Part shown: piece by piece, positions 5,627-22,937 of the stretch
How the letters are laid out: every line of letters starts with the position of its first letter
Position numbering within the stretch: position 1 is the first letter of the stretch
From: Lutibacter oricola
GTDB taxonomy: Bacteria; Bacteroidota; Bacteroidia; Flavobacteriales; Flavobacteriaceae
Reading direction: 5' to 3'
Length of the DNA stretch: 64,000 nt
Assembly (NCBI RefSeq): GCF_900106565.1
Contig: NZ_FNNJ01000004.1
Location: 186,001 to 250,000, forward strand
Translations under genes and position numbers: made by a program
The notes under the pieces: model-generated
Database searches by the model: none
What the model was told of the DNA's origin: nothing
Seen by the model: the letters and a program-made list of their open reading frames with translations, nothing else

Positions 5627-8359
5627 ATGAAAGTAAAAAATACATTGTTTTTACTGGCTGCATTTTTTGTGTTCAGTAATATTTTTTCAAAAGACATTTA
5701 CGTTGCCAAAAACGGAAATGATTCTAATCCTGGCACAGAAGCTGAGCCGTACTTAACTATTAGCAAAGCAGCTAGTGTTGCAGTTGCAGGTGATATTGTT
5801 TTTATTAAAGAAGGAACTTATGAAGAAACAGTTGCACCTTCAAATTCAGGTTCAGCAGGTAATCCTATTGTTTTTCAATCTTATCCTGGAGATCAAGTAA
5901 TAATTTCAGCAATGGAAGCCTTATCGGGTTGGACTCAAGAAGGAGGAGGTATTTATAAAACTACAATTCCATTTGCTAGTTTAGGAGATGATAATTTTGT
6001 TATGAATGGAGAAACAGCTTGTGTTTTAGCAAGGTGGCCAAACAAAACAAGTAGCAATCCTTTCGAGTTAAATTCAATTAGAAATACTGGTGGAAGTGAT
6101 GGATCTGTATCCAATGGCGCATATTTAACCGAGAGTTCTATACCTGGGATAGACTGGACAGGTGGTGCAGTTTTCTTTTATGGAGATAAAGCTGGTTCTG
6201 GTTGGTTAGCTTGGAAAGAAACAGTTACAAGCAGTTCTTCAGGAAGAGTTAATTTTAATTTGAATAAAAGCCCAGATTGGATTCGAACTTTTCACGCTCC
6301 TGCAGATTTAGGAGATTTTTATTTAGAAGGTGTAAAAGAAGCTTTAGATTATGAAAATGAATGGTATTTCGATTCTTCAACAAAAGAATTATTTATTCAA
6401 TTGCCAAATGGTGGTGCTCCGGTAGATGGTGTTGTTAAAATGAGACGTAGAAGTGAAACTATTAATATAAAGGATAAAAAATATATAGAAATTAAAAATT
6501 TAGCTGTTTTTGGTGGAAGTATTAATATGGAAGATTCTTCTACTTGGCAAAATGGAGGAAATAACAGGACAACTAATAATAAATTGTATGGTGTTTCTTC
6601 TTTTTATGGAAACCATACTTTAGGTGTTTTTACAGGTTCGCATTCTGGTAAAGCCAGTTTAAATATGCAAGGCTCTAATAATATTGTAGAAAGATGTGAA
6701 GTTGCGTTTGGAGCTGGATCTGGATTACAGGTTAGAGGTAATAATCATCAAATAATAGATTCTCGTATTCACGACTTTAATTATTTAGGCTCTTATGATG
6801 CTCCTTTAGTTATTAGAGGAATTTACAATACTAAAATTAAGAACAATGAAATTTTTAACGGAGGTAGAGATGGTATTGGCTATTATGGAGAAAATAATGA
6901 ATTGTCTTATAACGATATTTCTAGAAGTAATTTAATTGCAGATGATTGCGCGTTATTTTATACTGTTGGTAGACAAGATAATACTGAAATTCATCATAAC
7001 TGGTTCCACGATGCCGCTTCTAGTGGTACAAAAACAAAAGCTGCAGGTATTTATTTAGATAATGACGCTGCTGGTTTTTCAGTACACCATAATGTAGTTT
7101 GGAATACGGAGTGGTCTAGTATTCAAATAAATTGGAATGGTGAAGATATAGATATATTTAACAATACACTTTGGAATGGCTCGCAAGTTATGGGAGCTTG
7201 GCATAAAGATGGAACTTCATTTACAAATGTTAAAGTATGGAATAACTTAGGTAGTGATGATAATTGGGAACCACAATCTGATAAGCAAAATAATTTAATG
7301 GTTGAATCTACTGTTTTTAATAATGCAGATAGTGGAGATTTCAATTTAAAAGCAGGCTCTACTCCAGTAGATGCTGGTAGAGTTATTGATGGAATTACAG
7401 ATGGTTATATTGGAGCAAATCCGGATGTTGGTGCTTATGAACATGGAGGAGATAATTGGGTAGCAGGTATAACTTGGGATGCTAATTATGGACCAACTGG
7501 ATTAGGTTGTTACGGTCTTCCTGGTGAAGAGTGTATACTTTTACCTAAAGATGATCAGGATAATGATGGTGTTGCAGATGCAAATGATGATTGTCCAGAT
7601 ACACCTGCAGGTACAACTGTAAACACTAGTGGATGTCCTGTATTTGATTTAGCTGCAGAAAATTTTAAAGTTTTAGTTTCAGGAGAAAATTGTGCAAGTA
7701 GTAATAATGGTTCAATTTCAATAACTTCAGTAGAAAATTTATCCTTTACTGCTAAGTTAGAAGAAACTGGAGTTGAAAAGAATTTTACTACAAATGTAGA
7801 GTTTACAGATTTATCAGCTGGAGATTATAAGGTATGTATAACAACAACTGAAAATGCTGAATATATACAATGTTTTAATATTACAGTTAAAGAGCCTGAA
7901 GCTTTAAGTGTATCTTCAAAATTTAGTAAGTCTAGTGGAGAAGTTACTTTAACATTGGATGGAGCTGATAAGTACAAGGTTGAATTAAATGGCGTGACGA
8001 CTATTACAGATAAAAGTGAGTTGAAATTAAATTTAAGTTTTGGACAAAATAATATAAAAGTTACTACAGATTTAGATTGTCAAGGTGAGTATTTAGAAAA
8101 AATAAGCCTTTTTGATACAGTATTAATTTATCCAAATTCAGTTCAAAATAATTTAACAATTGCTTTACCTAATTCTAGTCTAGAAGATGAGGTAACTTAT
8201 AAAATAGTTTCATTTTCGGGGCAAATAATTTTAAGTAAAACAGAAAAACCAACTAGTAATAAAATAACTGTAAATGTTGAAAATTTAATAAATGGAATTT
8301 ATTTCATTCATATAACATCTTCAACTTTAAACACTCAATCTAAAATTATAAAACAATGA
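5627..8359 (+). CDS. Secreted right-handed beta-helix protein with T9SS sorting domain, putative polysaccharide-active enzyme
   Basis: The 910-residue protein has a signal peptide (1-22), then a right-handed parallel beta-helix (about 25-600). Its opening, IYVAKNGNDSNPGTEAEPY, is typical of beta-helix lyases and glycosidases. An inserted stretch, LEGVKEALDYENEWYFD, is common in such enzymes. Thrombospondin type-3-like calcium-binding Asp repeats follow (about 641-668, DQDNDGVADANDDCPDTPAG). The last about 80 residues are a type A T9SS sorting domain (IYPNSVQNNL to SKIIKQ). It is probably released or attached at the cell surface. I cannot assign a PL or GH family or a substrate. Its stop overlaps the next start. 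Confidence 0.8.
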   Translation: MKVKNTLFLLAAFFVFSNIFSKDIYVAKNGNDSNPGTEAEPYLTISKAASVAVAGDIVFIKEGTYEETVAPSNSGSAGNPIVFQSYPGDQVIISAMEALSGWTQEGGGIYKTTIPFASLGDDNFVMNGETACVLARWPNKTSSNPFELNSIRNTGGSDGSVSNGAYLTESSIPGIDWTGGAVFFYGDKAGSGWLAWKETVTSSSSGRVNFNLNKSPDWIRTFHAPADLGDFYLEGVKEALDYENEWYFDSSTKELFIQLPNGGAPVDGVVKMRRRSETINIKDKKYIEIKNLAVFGGSINMEDSSTWQNGGNNRTTNNKLYGVSSFYGNHTLGVFTGSHSGKASLNMQGSNNIVERCEVAFGAGSGLQVRGNNHQIIDSRIHDFNYLGSYDAPLVIRGIYNTKIKNNEIFNGGRDGIGYYGENNELSYNDISRSNLIADDCALFYTVGRQDNTEIHHNWFHDAASSGTKTKAAGIYLDNDAAGFSVHHNVVWNTEWSSIQINWNGEDIDIFNNTLWNGSQVMGAWHKDGTSFTNVKVWNNLGSDDNWEPQSDKQNNLMVESTVFNNADSGDFNLKAGSTPVDAGRVIDGITDGYIGANPDVGAYEHGGDNWVAGITWDANYGPTGLGCYGLPGEECILLPKDDQDNDGVADANDDCPDTPAGTTVNTSGCPVFDLAAENFKVLVSGENCASSNNGSISITSVENLSFTAKLEETGVEKNFTTNVEFTDLSAGDYKVCITTTENAEYIQCFNITVKEPEALSVSSKFSKSSGEVTLTLDGADKYKVELNGVTTITDKSELKLNLSFGQNNIKVTTDLDCQGEYLEKISLFDTVLIYPNSVQNNLTIALPNSSLEDEVTYKIVSFSGQIILSKTEKPTSNKITVNVENLINGIYFIHITSSTLNTQSKIIKQ

Positions 8360-16835: not shown

Positions 16836-16866
16836 AAAAAAAGGGAACACATTGTTCCCTTTTTTT
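16836..16866. terminator. Bidirectional terminator between rimO and SDR gene
   Basis: A 14-base stem (A-tract plus GGGAACA, with its complement) and a 3-base loop lie between convergent genes. It ends the uronate/gluconate operon on the minus strand. Confidence 0.88.
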
Positions 16867-16888: not shown

Positions 16889-17659
16889 TTACATATTATA
16901 AACACCGCCATTTATATCTAGTGTTGCTCCAGTAATAAAACCGTCATATTCAGATGCTAGAAATAATACAGCTCTAGCTACATCTGCAGCGTTTCCTGCT
17001 CTTTGAATTGGTATGCTTGCTGTAGTTTCTGCTGCAGATTCTTTAGTTGTATGTGTATTATGGAACGAAGTACCAAGAATAAGCCCAGGTGCAACAGCGT
17101 TAACTCTTGTTCCTTGTGCCCCTAATTCTGTAGAAAGCGCTCTTGTAAATGTTAGAATAGCACCTTTACTAGTTGAATAAACTAACGATCCAGGATGACC
17201 ACCTTTACGGCCAGCAAGAGATGCTAAATTTACAATACTACTATTTTTATTTTTGGCTAAATAAGGAGCAGCAGCTCTTGATACAAACATCATAGAGGTT
17301 AAATTTATATCCATTACTTTATGCCAAAAACTAGCTTCCATTTCATTTAACATTCTACGAGCAACTAATGATCCTGCGTTGTTAATTAAAATGTCTAGTC
17401 CGCCTAATTCTATTATTGTGTTTTCTACCAAAGCTTTTGCATCTGCTTCTTTAGTAAGGTCACCATTTATTGCAATTGCTTTTAAACCTTTATCTCTAGC
17501 GTATTCTACCAATTGATTCGCAGTTTCAGCACTAGAAAAATAATGGATTGCAACATTAGCTCCGTTATCTATAAAGTGTTTGGTAATTGATTCTCCAATT
17601 CCTTGTGCACCAGCAGTTATTAATACATTTTTGCCAGCTATTTTATTTTTGTAGTCCAT
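16889..17659 (-). CDS. SDR family oxidoreductase, candidate DEH reductase
   Basis: This 256-residue classical short-chain dehydrogenase has a cofactor loop TAGAQGIGE, INNAG, catalytic Ser in NLASLAG and YSTSK, and a C-terminal ITGATLDINGG. In alginate catabolism an SDR of this type reduces 4-deoxy-L-erythro-5-hexoseulose uronate (DEH) to 2-keto-3-deoxygluconate. Because this gene is last in an operon with a PL7 alginate lyase and a FadR-type regulator, that reaction is the best guess. A gluconate 5-dehydrogenase role is an alternative, given the gluconokinase in the same operon. There are 62 bases between the lyase stop and this start. Confidence 0.88.
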   Translation of the reverse strand: MDYKNKIAGKNVLITAGAQGIGESITKHFIDNGANVAIHYFSSAETANQLVEYARDKGLKAIAINGDLTKEADAKALVENTIIELGGLDILINNAGSLVARRMLNEMEASFWHKVMDINLTSMMFVSRAAAPYLAKNKNSSIVNLASLAGRKGGHPGSLVYSTSKGAILTFTRALSTELGAQGTRVNAVAPGLILGTSFHNTHTTKESAAETTASIPIQRAGNAADVARAVLFLASEYDGFITGATLDINGGVYNM

Positions 17660-17721: not shown

Positions 17722-18825
17722 TTATTTTTTCTTATATAATTCATCATTTTTACTGAAATATCCATCATTTGAATATGCATCATCGCTTACAGTTATACGG
17801 GCTGTTTTAAACCATACTTCAGTATAATTACCATCTTTATATTGTTTTTGAATATCACCACCGTGAGTTTCAGCTCCTGAACACCAATTTTTATTTATTT
17901 CAGGAGATTTTCCATTTGTTTGATTATAATTTCCTAGTTTAAAAAAACAACCTTCACTACTGTATGCTTCTGCGCGCTCTACACCGTCTTGACCAATTGG
18001 TACAAATAATTTTTTAGTTTGTTCAGGAATGTCTTCTTTAGTTGTATATTCTGATGCTATTATGTTTTTTGTAAATATTTTGGTTTCGTGTCCTTCACTT
18101 GTAAATATCAGGGTCATAATACCATTTTTAACATCTATTTCATAAGTAAATTCTTCACCTAAAGCAATTCCATCTGTAGGTTCTTCAGGATAAGTACTTA
18201 CATCTGTACCAACAACAGATAAGTCGTAGCCCCACACGGCTGTTGAAAAATCCCATCTTCCAGAATTATCGTCACCGTCTGTATTAATTTCATAATCCCA
18301 AAACACTGAGCCTTTGGTATGACCAGGAAATTTTTTGTAAAATATTTTAAGAGGTTCATTTTCGTGCCCATCAGCACTATGAATTTGACCTATAACTACG
18401 GAATAAGAAGCTGCTACACGTGCATCTCCAGTGACAGATACATTCATTACTTTTAATGTAGCTTTTAAATTTGCATTAGATGTTGGAGCCCACTTTTTTG
18501 ATTGTGCTAATTCGGTTCTAGTGTTGTTAGAAGTTCCGTGTGTATGACCCGCATTTGGCGTTTTAAATACAACCCAGTTGTTTTTACCATCGTTATTGGT
18601 GTAAAAAAAATCTTTATTTTCAAAATTATTTGCAATACCTGCATTTGAACCATCACCTAAAATTAATTTCCAATGATCAAAAAATGGTATAACATCACTT
18701 GCGTAAACTGTTTTTACAGCTTCATTTTCTTTCGTTTTTTTTACTTCATCTTTACAGCTATTAAGTGTTAGGAAAACTCCAAGAATTAGTAGCGTAGTTA
18801 CAGGTTTGAAAATTTTGTTTTTCAT
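17722..18825 (-). CDS. PL7 family alginate lyase, lipoprotein
   Basis: A 367-residue polysaccharide lyase with a lipobox (LNSC, Cys24), so probably anchored in the outer membrane or inner leaflet. The three PL7 signatures are present: RTEL (103-106), QIH (147-149) and FFKLGNYNQ (294-302), the last carrying the catalytic Tyr300. PL7 enzymes cleave alginate by beta-elimination. In this family QIH rather than QVH is generally linked to guluronate-containing substrates. A frame extension to ATG 18846 exists, but ATG 18825 gives a normal lipoprotein signal. It follows the GntR gene closely in the operon. Confidence 0.92.
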   Translation of the reverse strand: MKNKIFKPVTTLLILGVFLTLNSCKDEVKKTKENEAVKTVYASDVIPFFDHWKLILGDGSNAGIANNFENKDFFYTNNDGKNNWVVFKTPNAGHTHGTSNNTRTELAQSKKWAPTSNANLKATLKVMNVSVTGDARVAASYSVVIGQIHSADGHENEPLKIFYKKFPGHTKGSVFWDYEINTDGDDNSGRWDFSTAVWGYDLSVVGTDVSTYPEEPTDGIALGEEFTYEIDVKNGIMTLIFTSEGHETKIFTKNIIASEYTTKEDIPEQTKKLFVPIGQDGVERAEAYSSEGCFFKLGNYNQTNGKSPEINKNWCSGAETHGGDIQKQYKDGNYTEVWFKTARITVSDDAYSNDGYFSKNDELYKKK

Positions 18826-18853
18826 TGTATTATATTTTGGTTTCATTTATATC

Positions 18854-19549
18854 TTAGTTTTCAATGTGTTTTTTTAATTTAAAAAAGTGGTCACTCATCA
18901 TTTTTGTTGCTAATTCAGGATTTTTAGCTTCTATTGCTAAATAAATGTCTTCGTGTTTTTTTATTTCAGAAATAGCAATATCACCTTCACAAACTGTATC
19001 TCTATCGTAAGTTGCAAGAATAGGAGGAGTTATTAACAGCATTAATGAAACCATTGTACTGTTTTTACTAGCTTTGGCAATTGCCAAATGAAATAATAAA
19101 TCTTCCTCTAAATAATCATCTCCAATAGAAATTTTAGCTTTAAAAGCATTTAAAGCTTTCTTTATCTGTTTTAAATCAGCACTAGTTCTTCTTTGTGATG
19201 CCAAGCCAACTGTTTTTAATTCTAATGAAATTCGGGTTTCTACAAGTTCGTTAAACGAAGGAGCGTCTAAAGAAATTATTTCATCTATCATACCATTAAA
19301 ACCAACTAAACCAATTGCTAGTATAGTGCCGCTTTGAGACATCGATTTTAACACACCATAAAATTCAAGCCTTCTTATAGCTTCTCTAATATGATTTCTT
19401 TTAACACCAAATTTTTCAGACATTATTCTTTCAGAAGGTAATTTATCACCACGCTCTAAATTTTTAGCGTTAATTAAATTACGAATCTTAATAATCACCT
19501 CATTTTGCAAAAGTCTATTTGCATTTTCATCTATTAGGCTTATTTTCAT
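18854..19549 (-). CDS. FadR-subfamily GntR transcriptional regulator
   Basis: A 231-residue regulator. Residues 10-80 are the winged helix of GntR proteins (GDKLPSERIMSEKFGVKRN then HIREAIRRLEFYGVL). Residues 95-225 are an all-helical FCD effector domain (VETRISLELKTVGLA; DDYLEEDLLFHLAIAKASKN). FCD regulators sense carboxylates such as uronates, gluconate or their keto-deoxy derivatives. It lies inside the operon it probably represses: two palindromes of GntR type overlap the promoter at 22767-22799, one close to the UxuR/ExuR operator. Confidence 0.92.
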   Translation of the reverse strand: MKISLIDENANRLLQNEVIIKIRNLINAKNLERGDKLPSERIMSEKFGVKRNHIREAIRRLEFYGVLKSMSQSGTILAIGLVGFNGMIDEIISLDAPSFNELVETRISLELKTVGLASQRRTSADLKQIKKALNAFKAKISIGDDYLEEDLLFHLAIAKASKNSTMVSLMLLITPPILATYDRDTVCEGDIAISEIKKHEDIYLAIEAKNPELATKMMSDHFFKLKKHIEN

Positions 19550-19569: not shown

Positions 19570-20844
19570 TTAAAAATATTCCGTAAGTGCTAAAATTCCA
19601 TTGTAAGAAATTACTAAAGAAAAGAACAATGCAGCATACATACCAATATATACACCTATACTTGTTTTGTATTCTTTCATAACTTTTTTATTGCTTAGCA
19701 TAAGTATAATTCCAAGTATTACAATTGGTAATACAAAAACATTAAATACTTGCGATAAAATTTGAATTTCAATTGGGTTTGCTCCAAATGCAGGGCCTAT
19801 TAATGCAACTAAACAAGCTATGGCTGTAATAATTCTAAATTGTTTTGAATTGGTATCTAAAGTTCCAGATTGGTAATCAGCTATTAATAAAGGAGCTATT
19901 AATAAACAAGGAAATATAGAGGATAACCCAGCACTTAATGCACCAAAAAAGAAAATGGTAACGGCCCATTTACCTGCAACAGGTTCTAATGTGTTTGCCA
20001 TATCTAAAACTTGAGTAACAGCTTTACCTTCATAAAACAATGCTCCAGCTGCAACAGCCATTATAACACCACTAATAACAAAAATTAAAATTGCAGCTGT
20101 AATGGAATCTTTTTTTTGTTGATCTAAATTTTTAATGGTCCAGCCTTTTCCTTTTACAAATAAAGGGCGAGATAAAAATGTAGCTGAAGCCATAGTTGTG
20201 CCAACAAATGCGGCAACCAACATTTTGCCTCCAGGAATGTCTGGTATAGTTGGTATTAACCCTTTAATAACATCTACAGGTAATGGTTGAACAAAGAATA
20301 ATGAAAGTAAAAAAGATAGCCCCATTAACGTTACAAATATGACTAATATTTTTTCAAAAAAAGTGTATTTACCAACTAGCATTAATAAGTAAAAAGTAAC
20401 AATTATAATTACAGCTGTTATTAATACTGTTTCATATTTATAGGTTGCTAGAGTTTCAAAATTTAGAGCTAGAATTTCAAATATTATGTTTGAGGATATA
20501 CCTAAAATACCCATTAACGAATTCCATTGTCCAAATGTAATACCAACAATAATAAGTATGGCTAAAATTTTACCGAATTTTAAATGTTTTTTGAAACCAT
20601 AAAGTGCAGTTTCACCTGTAATTAAGGCGTAATTTCCGTAGGCAAACATTAAAATACCAGAAAATGTACAACTTAATAATAGCACCCATAATAATTGCAT
20701 ATTAAACTTGCTTCCTGCAACAATCATAGACGTTACACTACCAGTACCTATGGTATAACCAATGGCAAAAATACCAGGGCCAAATGCTAAAACTATTGCA
20801 ATTATTTTTTGAAGTAAAGATTTTTTGTTTTCAGTTGAAGCCAT
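19570..20844 (-). CDS. Nramp-fold transporter lacking the metal-binding motifs
   Basis: A 424-residue membrane protein with about 11 hydrophobic helices and the Nramp/LeuT-like layout. The opening (FGPGIFAIGYTIGTGSVTSM, 21-40) aligns with Nramp TM1, but the metal-binding DPGN is replaced by roughly IGTG (32-35). In TM6 the canonical MPH is replaced in VGTTMASATFLSR (214-226). The protein therefore probably does not carry Mn2+ or Fe2+. It sits 3 bases after the gluconokinase/6PGDH stop and upstream of the GntR and alginate lyase genes. Uptake of an organic acid such as a uronate or gluconate is a reasonable inference. Databases may label it a divalent metal transporter. Confidence 0.85.
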   Translation of the reverse strand: MASTENKKSLLQKIIAIVLAFGPGIFAIGYTIGTGSVTSMIVAGSKFNMQLLWVLLLSCTFSGILMFAYGNYALITGETALYGFKKHLKFGKILAILIIVGITFGQWNSLMGILGISSNIIFEILALNFETLATYKYETVLITAVIIIVTFYLLMLVGKYTFFEKILVIFVTLMGLSFLLSLFFVQPLPVDVIKGLIPTIPDIPGGKMLVAAFVGTTMASATFLSRPLFVKGKGWTIKNLDQQKKDSITAAILIFVISGVIMAVAAGALFYEGKAVTQVLDMANTLEPVAGKWAVTIFFFGALSAGLSSIFPCLLIAPLLIADYQSGTLDTNSKQFRIITAIACLVALIGPAFGANPIEIQILSQVFNVFVLPIVILGIILMLSNKKVMKEYKTSIGVYIGMYAALFFSLVISYNGILALTEYF

Positions 20845-20847
20845 AGT

Positions 20848-22749
20848 TTAATTATTTTTCCAGTTAGTATGATAGAATTTTTTTGAAGGATCATTTACTT
20901 TTTGATAGGTATGAGCACCAAAATAGTCTCGCTGTGCTTGTATTAGATTAGCAGATGAATTTGCTATTGCAAAACTGTTTAAAAAATTAATAGATTCACT
21001 AAAATTTGGAATCGGTAATTCATTTAAAATACATTCAGCAACTACTTTTTTAGCAGTTGGTTTTAATGTTTTTATTTTTTGAATTATCTCATCATTAGTA
21101 AACAAGTTATTGGTTGTTTTAAACACCGTAACTAGCTCTACCATTAAATCCGATTTTATAATACAGCCATTAGTCCATATTCTAGATAGTTCGCTTAAAT
21201 TTAATTCCCATTTGTAATTGTTAGAAGCTTCTTGAATTAATTTAAACCCTTGATAATGATTAATAATTCTAGCAAATTGATAAGTTTTTAAAATATCTTC
21301 AACAGTTATATTTAGGCTAAAATTATTATTTGATTCAAAATTTTGATGAGCAGTAATTCGTTCTTCTTTATAAAATGAAGTGTAACGAGCAAATAAGGCA
21401 GTAGCAATCATAGTGCTTGGTACACCTAACTGAGCAGTTGCTATGGTTGTCCAGTTTCCTGTTCCTTTATTACCAGCTTTATCCATTATGTTGTTAACTA
21501 ACCAATCTTCACCTTCTTTAGTTCTTAAAATATCAATAGTTATTTCTAGTAAATAACTATTAGTCGTCTCTTTCCAAGATTCTAAAATATCGGCTATTTC
21601 ATCAGGGTTATTACCTAAAGCTTTTAGCATTACAAAAGCTTCGGCCAATAATTGCATTTCTACATATTCAATACCATTATGAACCATTTTTACAAAATGC
21701 CCACTTCCTTCATTTCCAATGTGAGTACAACAAGGCAAATTATTAGCATCTTTAGCTGCAATAGCTTCTAAAAAAGGTTGAATATTTTTATATATTTTTT
21801 TGTTACAACCAGGCATAATAGATGGTCCTTTTAAGGCTCCTTCTTCACCACCAGAAACACCAGTTCCAACAAAATGAATGTTTTTAGATTCTAAATATTT
21901 GAATCGTTCTTTTGTTTTATTGTAATTAGAGTTTCCACCATCTATTAAAATATCTCCAGCGTCTAAAAAAGGTAAAATATCTTCAATAACAGAATCAACA
22001 ATATTTCCAGCATTAACCATAAGCATAATTTTTCGTGGTTTTTGCAATGAATTAACAAAAGGTTCTATTGAATCAAATGGATTAGCAGATGATAATTCTT
22101 CAAATTCATTTTTAAAGTTTTTTGCAACATTTTCTTCTACACCTTCAACATGTCTATTAAAAAGGGAAATTTTAAACCCTTTGTTAGCTAGGTTTCTACT
22201 AAGGCTTTTACCCATAACTCCCAATCCAAACAAGCCAAATTCAGATTTATTTAATAGTTCTTTTTTTATCATTTTTACAATATTGTTAGGTGTTAAATTT
22301 ATGTCTATATCTATGGCGTTTTTTGGTTCTTCTAAAATATCAAATTGAGATTTTAACAAATCAGAATTCATAAAATGCCCCTTGCGATTATTTATACGTT
22401 CAGTTATTTGTTTAAAAGAACCGTTTAGAAAAACCCATTTTGTGTAATGTTTTATGTCTTCATTTAAAATATCACGGTATTTTTCTTTTAATGCAGAACA
22501 TACTATAACGCAACCTTCTTTATTTGTCAATTGTTTTATAGCTAGCTTGTTTAAGGTTTGTAACCAACCAAATCTGTCATTGTCATTTAAAGGTTTTCCT
22601 TTTGACATTTTTAAAATATTTTCTTCTGGATGAAAGTCATCTCCATCGAAAAAAGGAATATGTAACTCTTTAGATAATAAGTCTCCAATAGTGCTTTTAC
22701 CAACACCTGAAACTCCCATAATAAATATAATATTGGTCTCTTTTTTCAT
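20848..22749 (-). CDS. Bifunctional gluconokinase / 6-phosphogluconate dehydrogenase fusion
   Basis: The 633-residue fusion has a complete GntK-type kinase at residues 1-165 (P-loop MGVSGVGKST, FFDGDDFHPEENILKMSKGK, VCSALKEKYR) and a complete decarboxylating 6-phosphogluconate dehydrogenase from about 170 to 633 (FGLFGLGVMGKSLSRNLA, GTGVSGGEEGALKGPSIMPG, HNGIEY, DKAGNKGTGNWT). Together they would turn gluconate into ribulose 5-phosphate in one polypeptide, with ATP use and NAD(P)H plus CO2 release. Both halves have normal length and no missing motifs. It is the first gene of the operon, three bases from the transporter. Confidence 0.93.
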   Translation of the reverse strand: MKKETNIIFIMGVSGVGKSTIGDLLSKELHIPFFDGDDFHPEENILKMSKGKPLNDNDRFGWLQTLNKLAIKQLTNKEGCVIVCSALKEKYRDILNEDIKHYTKWVFLNGSFKQITERINNRKGHFMNSDLLKSQFDILEEPKNAIDIDINLTPNNIVKMIKKELLNKSEFGLFGLGVMGKSLSRNLANKGFKISLFNRHVEGVEENVAKNFKNEFEELSSANPFDSIEPFVNSLQKPRKIMLMVNAGNIVDSVIEDILPFLDAGDILIDGGNSNYNKTKERFKYLESKNIHFVGTGVSGGEEGALKGPSIMPGCNKKIYKNIQPFLEAIAAKDANNLPCCTHIGNEGSGHFVKMVHNGIEYVEMQLLAEAFVMLKALGNNPDEIADILESWKETTNSYLLEITIDILRTKEGEDWLVNNIMDKAGNKGTGNWTTIATAQLGVPSTMIATALFARYTSFYKEERITAHQNFESNNNFSLNITVEDILKTYQFARIINHYQGFKLIQEASNNYKWELNLSELSRIWTNGCIIKSDLMVELVTVFKTTNNLFTNDEIIQKIKTLKPTAKKVVAECILNELPIPNFSESINFLNSFAIANSSANLIQAQRDYFGAHTYQKVNDPSKKFYHTNWKNN

Positions 22750-22766
22750 TTATTCTATCTACTCTT

Positions 22767-22799
22767 AAATTGGTTAACCAGTTTGGGTACCCAAATATA
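22767..22799 (-). promoter_or_regulatory. Operon promoter with two adjacent palindromic operators
   Basis: The palindrome TTTGGGTACCCAAA (22782-22795) overlaps a minus-strand -7 box TATATTTG (22799-22792). A second dyad, AAATTGGTTAACCAGTTT (22767-22784), abuts it on the transcribed side. From memory, the second matches the UxuR/ExuR consensus AAATTGGTATACCAATTT at 15 of 18 positions. Binding there would block initiation. The cognate factor is probably the GntR protein of this operon. Confidence 0.65.
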
Positions 22800-22893: not shown

Positions 22894-22937
22894 TATAACA
22901 CAAAAAAAAGCTATTTACAGCTTTTTTTTGTGTTATA
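22894..22937. terminator. Terminator after M14 peptidase gene
   Basis: A perfect 19-base stem with a 6-base loop and long A/T tracts, 40 bases after the M14 stop on the minus strand, which also insulates the downstream operon promoter. Confidence 0.88.

Follow-up and report, generated by a model that had tools for sequence, protein, structure and literature searches.

An Nramp-related carrier without metal-binding motifs in an alginate-utilization operon of Lutibacter oricola

The operon and its link to alginate

The window analyzed is a stretch of 64,000 nucleotides of the Lutibacter oricola genome (contig NZ_FNNJ01000004.1, positions 186,001 to 250,000). Within it, five genes lie on the reverse strand in the order gntK-gnd, Nramp-like carrier, FadR-type regulator, PL7 lyase, and SDR. 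The carrier gene starts 3 bp past gntK-gnd, and the following gaps are 20, 7, and 62 bp. Positions below are those of the window.

22894-22937, reverse strand: terminator-like hairpin at the end of the preceding M14 peptidase gene, the upstream operon boundary
22771-22794, reverse strand: tandem palindromic operator TTGGGTACCCAAACTGGTTAACCA upstream of the operon
20848-22749, reverse strand: gntK-gnd, operon gene 1, a fusion of gluconokinase (GntK) and decarboxylating 6-phosphogluconate dehydrogenase (Gnd)
19570-20844, reverse strand: Nramp-related carrier of the GTGS clade, operon gene 2, 424 aa, intact ORF with an ATG start
18854-19549, reverse strand: GntR-family regulator of the FCD/FadR subfamily (PF07729 and PF00392)
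17722-18846, reverse strand: PL7-type alginate lyase (PF08787, E = 5e-49)
16889-17659, reverse strand: short-chain dehydrogenase, SDR (PF13561)
16836-16866, reverse strand: terminator-like hairpin 3′ of the SDR gene, the downstream operon boundary

The gntK-gnd product scores above the cut-offs of both TIGR01313 (173.5 bits, cut-off 113.75) and TIGR00873 (524 bits, cut-off 426.7). It is a single protein of 633 aa in the window, as in most orthologous loci, and GntK and Gnd are encoded by separate genes in loci L045, L047, L049, L054, L067, L097, and L098. The SDR may be a DEH reductase-like enzyme; among the NCBIfam matches listed for it, none reached an equivalog cut-off, and the names SDR, KdgF, and NagA are given here from family matches and position.

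The main alginate locus of the same genome sits on another contig (C14) and encodes two PL6 lyases, a PL17 lyase, a heparinase II/III-type protein, KdgF, SusC/D, a PL7 lyase, a FadR-type paralog of the operon's own regulator, an MFS carrier, and an SDR. With no mismatch allowed, TTGGNNNNCCAAANTGGTNNACCA occurs at only four promoters of the genome, that of the window operon and three in this alginate locus, ahead of PL6, PL17-KdgF, and SusC; at one of these three, the opposite strand can be read as a further site that overlaps the first. Of 80 orthologue loci, 30 contain the operator, in nearly every case directly ahead of alginate genes, and the reversed pattern was found in none. A copy with two mismatches precedes a pyruvate:ferredoxin/flavodoxin oxidoreductase-like gene (L205, about position 8060; G000, contig C15, 74059-74082) and may be due to chance. 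The FadR-type regulator of the operon may bind the operator at 22771-22794; a review describes AusR as a GntR-type alginate repressor in Zobellia (PMC8286568).

The original prediction had spoken of a sugar-acid operon. Sugar-acid enzymes do lie alongside the carrier, and the PL7 lyase and the operator common to the alginate locus narrow the description to alginate catabolism, so that the five-gene unit is more exactly an alginate-utilization operon. Encoded with an alginate lyase behind this operator, the carrier is probably a component of the alginate-utilization system.

The same context recurs in the 86 orthologue loci (68-93% identity), where PL7 (71 loci), GntK-Gnd (67), SDR (65), PL6 (46), and PL17 (40) are found within 4 kb; in 82 of the loci this range contains one or more specific sugar-catabolism genes, and the SDR gene is adjacent in most orthologous alginate loci. 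Among 397 Flavobacteriaceae genomes, 62 encode a member of the carrier's subclade. PL17 is present in 48 of these (Fisher p = 9e-27) and the alginate MFS in 58 (p = 3e-37), both p values ignoring shared ancestry, and in two congeners the carrier, PL17, and the MFS are all absent. The possibility that the Nramp-like protein replaces the alginate MFS was rejected because both are present in 58/62 genomes. Since the MFS also occurs in 81 of 83 PL17 genomes, the core carrier of monomers seems to be the MFS, with the Nramp-like protein as an addition to it. Alginate growth in general therefore does not depend on the Nramp-like protein, and its substrate is not fixed by elimination. All this gene-context evidence is correlative.

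Fold and metal-site residues

The carrier matches PF01566 over its full length (217 bits, cut-off 29.8, E = 5e-64) and passes the cut-off of the NCBIfam model NF037982, "Nramp family divalent metal transporter" (80.4 bits, cut-off 50), bearing out the expectation that databases would call it a metal transporter. An AlphaFold model built with 61 homologues (pLDDT 88.4, pTM 0.87) aligned with DraNramp 8e60 at Z 45.4 (rmsd 2.5 Å, 379 residues) and with EleNRMT (PDB 7qia) at Z 44.6-45.1, and its TM1 and TM6 are broken (unwound), as in the LeuT fold. By this model, which answers the earlier suggestion of modelling against Nramp structures, the carrier has the Nramp (LeuT-type) fold.

The metal site was compared in a MAFFT alignment of 175 proteins, using DraNramp numbering for the reference residues of TM3, TM9, and TM10. 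The residues of interest are the following.

20737-20748, reverse strand: G33-T34-G35-S36 in TM1, where DPGN is expected
20182-20190, reverse strand: A219-S220-A221 in TM6, where M-P-H is expected
20167-20169, reverse strand: R226 in TM6, invariant in the clade, at a position that is His in canonical proteins (EcMntH H216, DraNramp H237)
19750-19752, reverse strand: Q365 in TM10 (equivalent to Q378), the sole canonical metal-site side chain kept

The alignment agrees with the original reading of an Nramp frame without DPGN in TM1 and MPH in TM6, replaced here by GTGS and ASA. DraNramp E134 of TM3 pairs with I113 (MAFFT) or S109 (profile alignment), neither of them acidic, and R352/R353 of TM9 are replaced by I339/T340, so that the carrier lacks both the TM3 acid and the TM9 Arg of the proton pathway. 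It thus resembles canonical Nramp/MntH proteins of the SLC11 family (DraNramp, EcMntH, BfraNramp) in fold, overall topology, and TM10 Gln but differs from them in lacking DPGN, MPH, and the TM3 Glu and in having sugar enzymes rather than metal regulators as neighbors.

These features are not peculiar to the window. GTGS occupies TM1 in all 142 members of the clade, which excludes a private mutation or sequencing error in the carrier, and DPGN/MPH is found in all 14 canonical Nramps. The second TM6 His position is Arg in 142/142 clade members and in 88/88 of the non-redundant ones, the TM6 Met position is A, S, G, or F, and the TM10 Gln is kept in 140/142. No conserved acidic residue was found at the site in the 88 non-redundant members; the acids that the clade does conserve lie near helix ends or in loops. 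None of the acidic or Met ligands, whose restoration by alignment had been named in advance as counterevidence, was therefore restored.

The GTGS clade, its relatives, and their neighbors

In a maximum-likelihood tree, rooted by midpoint only and sampled mostly from Bacteroidota with additional plasmid records, the homologues fall into four main kinds: canonical (DPGN/MPH), NRMT-like (DAGG/DPSG), GPG[TS]/VPYN, and GTGS. We define the GTGS clade as a single clade with [IV]GTGS in TM1 and GTT plus an invariant Arg in TM6, and the window carrier shows all of these traits. The clade node has a support of 87 without and 90 with its most divergent member (L147); basal nodes are moderately supported (80-90), and the subclades well supported. 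EleNRMT has the same fold as the carrier and also lacks the metal-site Met, but it retains an acidic TM1 residue (NDAGG), moves Mg2+, and belongs to a different clade; the carrier has no such acid (DAGG or DPSG) and does not group with it.

The GPG[TS] proteins adjoin pxpABC in Flavobacteriaceae (confirmed beside the GPGT protein of L151) and hydantoinase/oxoprolinase genes on haloarchaeal plasmids, so this kind is probably the PxpT/YcsG group, an equation that stems from the pxpABC neighbors and not from the PxpT and YcsG sequences. Like the carrier, this group is Nramp by sequence, lacks DPGN/MPH, and is found with a GntR-type regulator in an organic-acid catabolic operon. Unlike the carrier, which has GTGS/ASA and no pxpABC neighbors, it has GPG[TS] and VPYN, keeps the TM6 His, adjoins pxpABC, and forms a separate clade. 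Its function is contested, as B. subtilis YcsG was reported to be an Mn importer that raises cellular Mn (PMC10448178), whereas C. glutamicum cannot grow on 5-oxoproline without pxpT (PMC13274462). The original prediction had regarded metal transport by homologues as evidence against it, and on this point the literature on the other Nramp-related group is contradictory. The pxpT genetics offer a precedent, from another clade, for the use of a cyclic carboxylic acid depending on an Nramp-family protein.

Several other relatives were noted. GPG[TS] proteins lie beside pxpABC or hydantoinase/oxoprolinase genes in L150, L151, L175, and L178, the plasmid ones being annotated as metal transporters. 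Non-canonical Nramp-related proteins, likewise annotated, lie by CoA-transferase/thiolase genes on a Mesobacillus plasmid (L173, 2388-6203) and by a dihydrodipicolinate-synthase family gene on a Neorhizobium plasmid (L172, 3852-6239). An unannotated, frame-split homologue with 35% identity has CoA-transferase and enoyl-CoA hydratase genes in its vicinity in L177 (CP054241.1, 834 kb), a record labelled as an E. coli plasmid; this label is doubtful, as it carries usual chromosome genes (dnaB, dusA). The only other PF01566 match in the L. oricola genome has GVSH and no DPGN and lies just outside the window (G000, contig C15, 250968-251987; L002, 1384-2613), and the search of this genome gave no canonical Nramp.

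Published mentions are few. A preprint (PMC12873925) describes diverse Nramp-related groups without metal motifs as "entirely uncharacterized", save an NRMT-like group and G-motif 3 (MntG); its "G-motif" groups lack the metal motifs as the carrier does, and no sugar context for them was found in its text. A figure legend (Fig. S3) of a study on the alginolytic system of Alteromonas sp. 76-1 lists an "Nramp, metal-ion transporter" gene in an alginate locus (PMC6431674), the same setting as here but labelled as a metal transporter and known from the legend rather than from sequence. This legend and PxpT were all that a literature search on Nramp sugar carriers, Nramp in alginate loci, and GapMind re-annotation returned.

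GTGS proteins with 32-42% identity to the carrier lie between a NagA-like amidohydrolase gene and nagB, between UxaC-SDR and UxuA genes, or beside genes for GH20/NagB, mannose-6-phosphate isomerase (ManA), or KdgK/KDPG aldolase (Eda). Sugar-catabolism genes were found within 4 kb in 37 of 49 GTGS loci outside the main alginate groups and in none of 20 canonical and 4 GPGT loci, with probes drawn from the GTGS loci themselves; because of this bias, the control was repeated as an unbiased Pfam scan. Same-strand neighbors of canonical Nramps then showed Fe-dependent repressor and FeoA domains, and those of GTGS genes glucosamine isomerase, amidohydrolase, xylose-isomerase-like, glycoside hydrolase, and (KDPG) aldolase domains. 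The comparison of TM1 and TM6 across homologues and their neighborhoods that had been called for thus gave an unbroken GTGS motif and neighbors that are sugar enzymes.

By hydropathy count, no other same-strand polytopic ORF lies within 8 kb in 16 of 18 NagA/NagB-type and 3 of 3 glucuronate-type loci, and in the two exceptions the extra ORF is itself an Nramp homologue. The arrangement with a NagA-like amidohydrolase and NagB on either side was seen in L102 (7619-12133) and about 15 similar loci, where the amidohydrolase seems to carry a signal peptide and a DHDPS/NanA-like aldolase is present in places. The glucuronate operon UxaC-SDR-Nramp-UxuA was seen in L121 (6882-11434) and L122 (8062-12604), with no further carrier candidate nearby. 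The sister subclades in amino-sugar operons suggest that the GTGS clade is not confined to acids.

Proposed function and alternatives

The loss of nearly all metal ligands, together with the sugar-digestion gene clusters, makes a sugar-acid rather than a metal carrier probable. We propose, with a probability of about 75%, that the protein is an inner-membrane secondary carrier built on an Nramp chassis, in which the central site would have changed from binding metal to binding a small sugar acid, in an alginate context. The conserved TM10 Gln, a canonical metal ligand, is a point against this proposal. Transport of an organic substrate, its direction, its coupling ion, and its exact substrate are what we infer. 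The carrier would be made together with the alginate-degrading enzymes; lyases would cleave alginate extracellularly and in the periplasm, and the carrier would import one of the monomeric acids so released (DEH or some other uronate or aldonate derived from alginate being the most likely) into the cytoplasm for use by SDR reductases, KDG kinase/KDPG aldolase, and GntK-Gnd. It would probably work beside the alginate MFS and not instead of it. That its substrate is specifically an alginate-derived uronate has about an even chance. The idea of a repurposed organic-acid carrier thus gains from a fold without metal ligands set among sugar-acid enzymes, and the amino-sugar subclades argue against extending it, as an acids-only function, to the clade. 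For the GTGS clade as a whole, it is somewhat likely that its members are general sugar and sugar-acid carriers on an Nramp chassis, with individual subclades adapted to alginate monomers, to hexuronates, to amino sugars, or to mannose/KDG-type substrates, and that databases give the name "divalent metal transporter" to all of them.

A carrier of gluconate or another aldonate feeding the adjacent GntK-Gnd, to which the alginate linkage would be secondary, is an unlikely alternative: GntK-Gnd directly adjoins the carrier in most orthologues (67/86) and still does so in L099, a locus at 56% identity in which no alginate lyase was seen, and genes for DgoK, KDPG aldolase, and gluconolactonase are present in L133 (55%). 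The case for gluconate as the obvious substrate is weakened, however, by L098, where GntP (TIGR00791, 374 bits) adjoins GntK-Gnd, and by L097, which has a gene of the same cluster in that place; a second gluconate carrier would be needless in such loci. The group at 74% identity, moreover, keeps the alginate operon without GntK-Gnd.

We consider it improbable that the protein is a divalent-metal carrier (for Mg2+, Mn2+, or Ca2+) with an altered site, supplying cofactors for kinases and dehydrogenases or handling the Ca2+ that alginate gels release, although the assignment by PF01566 and NF037982, the retained TM10 Gln, and the lack of a canonical Nramp in the genome fit such a role. EleNRMT moves Mg2+ without the Met (PMC8806188, as described in PMC10185341), and YcsG, from a different clade, is the reported Mn importer (PMC10448178). 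EleNRMT-type proteins have an acidic TM1 residue that GTGS proteins lack, however, and the GTGS site combines the absence of a conserved acid with an invariant TM6 Arg. Sugar enzymes of several unrelated pathways, including amino-sugar ones, and not metal regulators, adjoin the GTGS genes. A transport-inactive sensor or transceptor that signals its substrate through the Nramp fold, the role proposed for the Nramp-like domain of plant EIN2, would suit co-transcription with a GntR-type regulator and the MFS carrier already present in most such genomes. This reading is very improbable, given a length of 424 aa with no extra soluble domain, the unwound TM1 and TM6 of a carrier retained in the AlphaFold model, and the lack of another carrier candidate near most NagA/NagB and all glucuronate loci.

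If the proposed sugar-acid carrier is real, one of the most thoroughly studied metal-transporter folds would also underlie a carrier family for sugars and sugar acids in marine Bacteroidota, and the entire GTGS clade would be misnamed by automatic annotation. For amino-sugar and glucuronate operons in which no inner-membrane carrier is otherwise visible, the clade would provide candidates, and it would bring a second carrier to the flavobacterial alginate pathway. The series DPGN, DAGG, GPGT, and GTGS would then be a natural one in which to study a change of substrate class in a LeuT-fold site.
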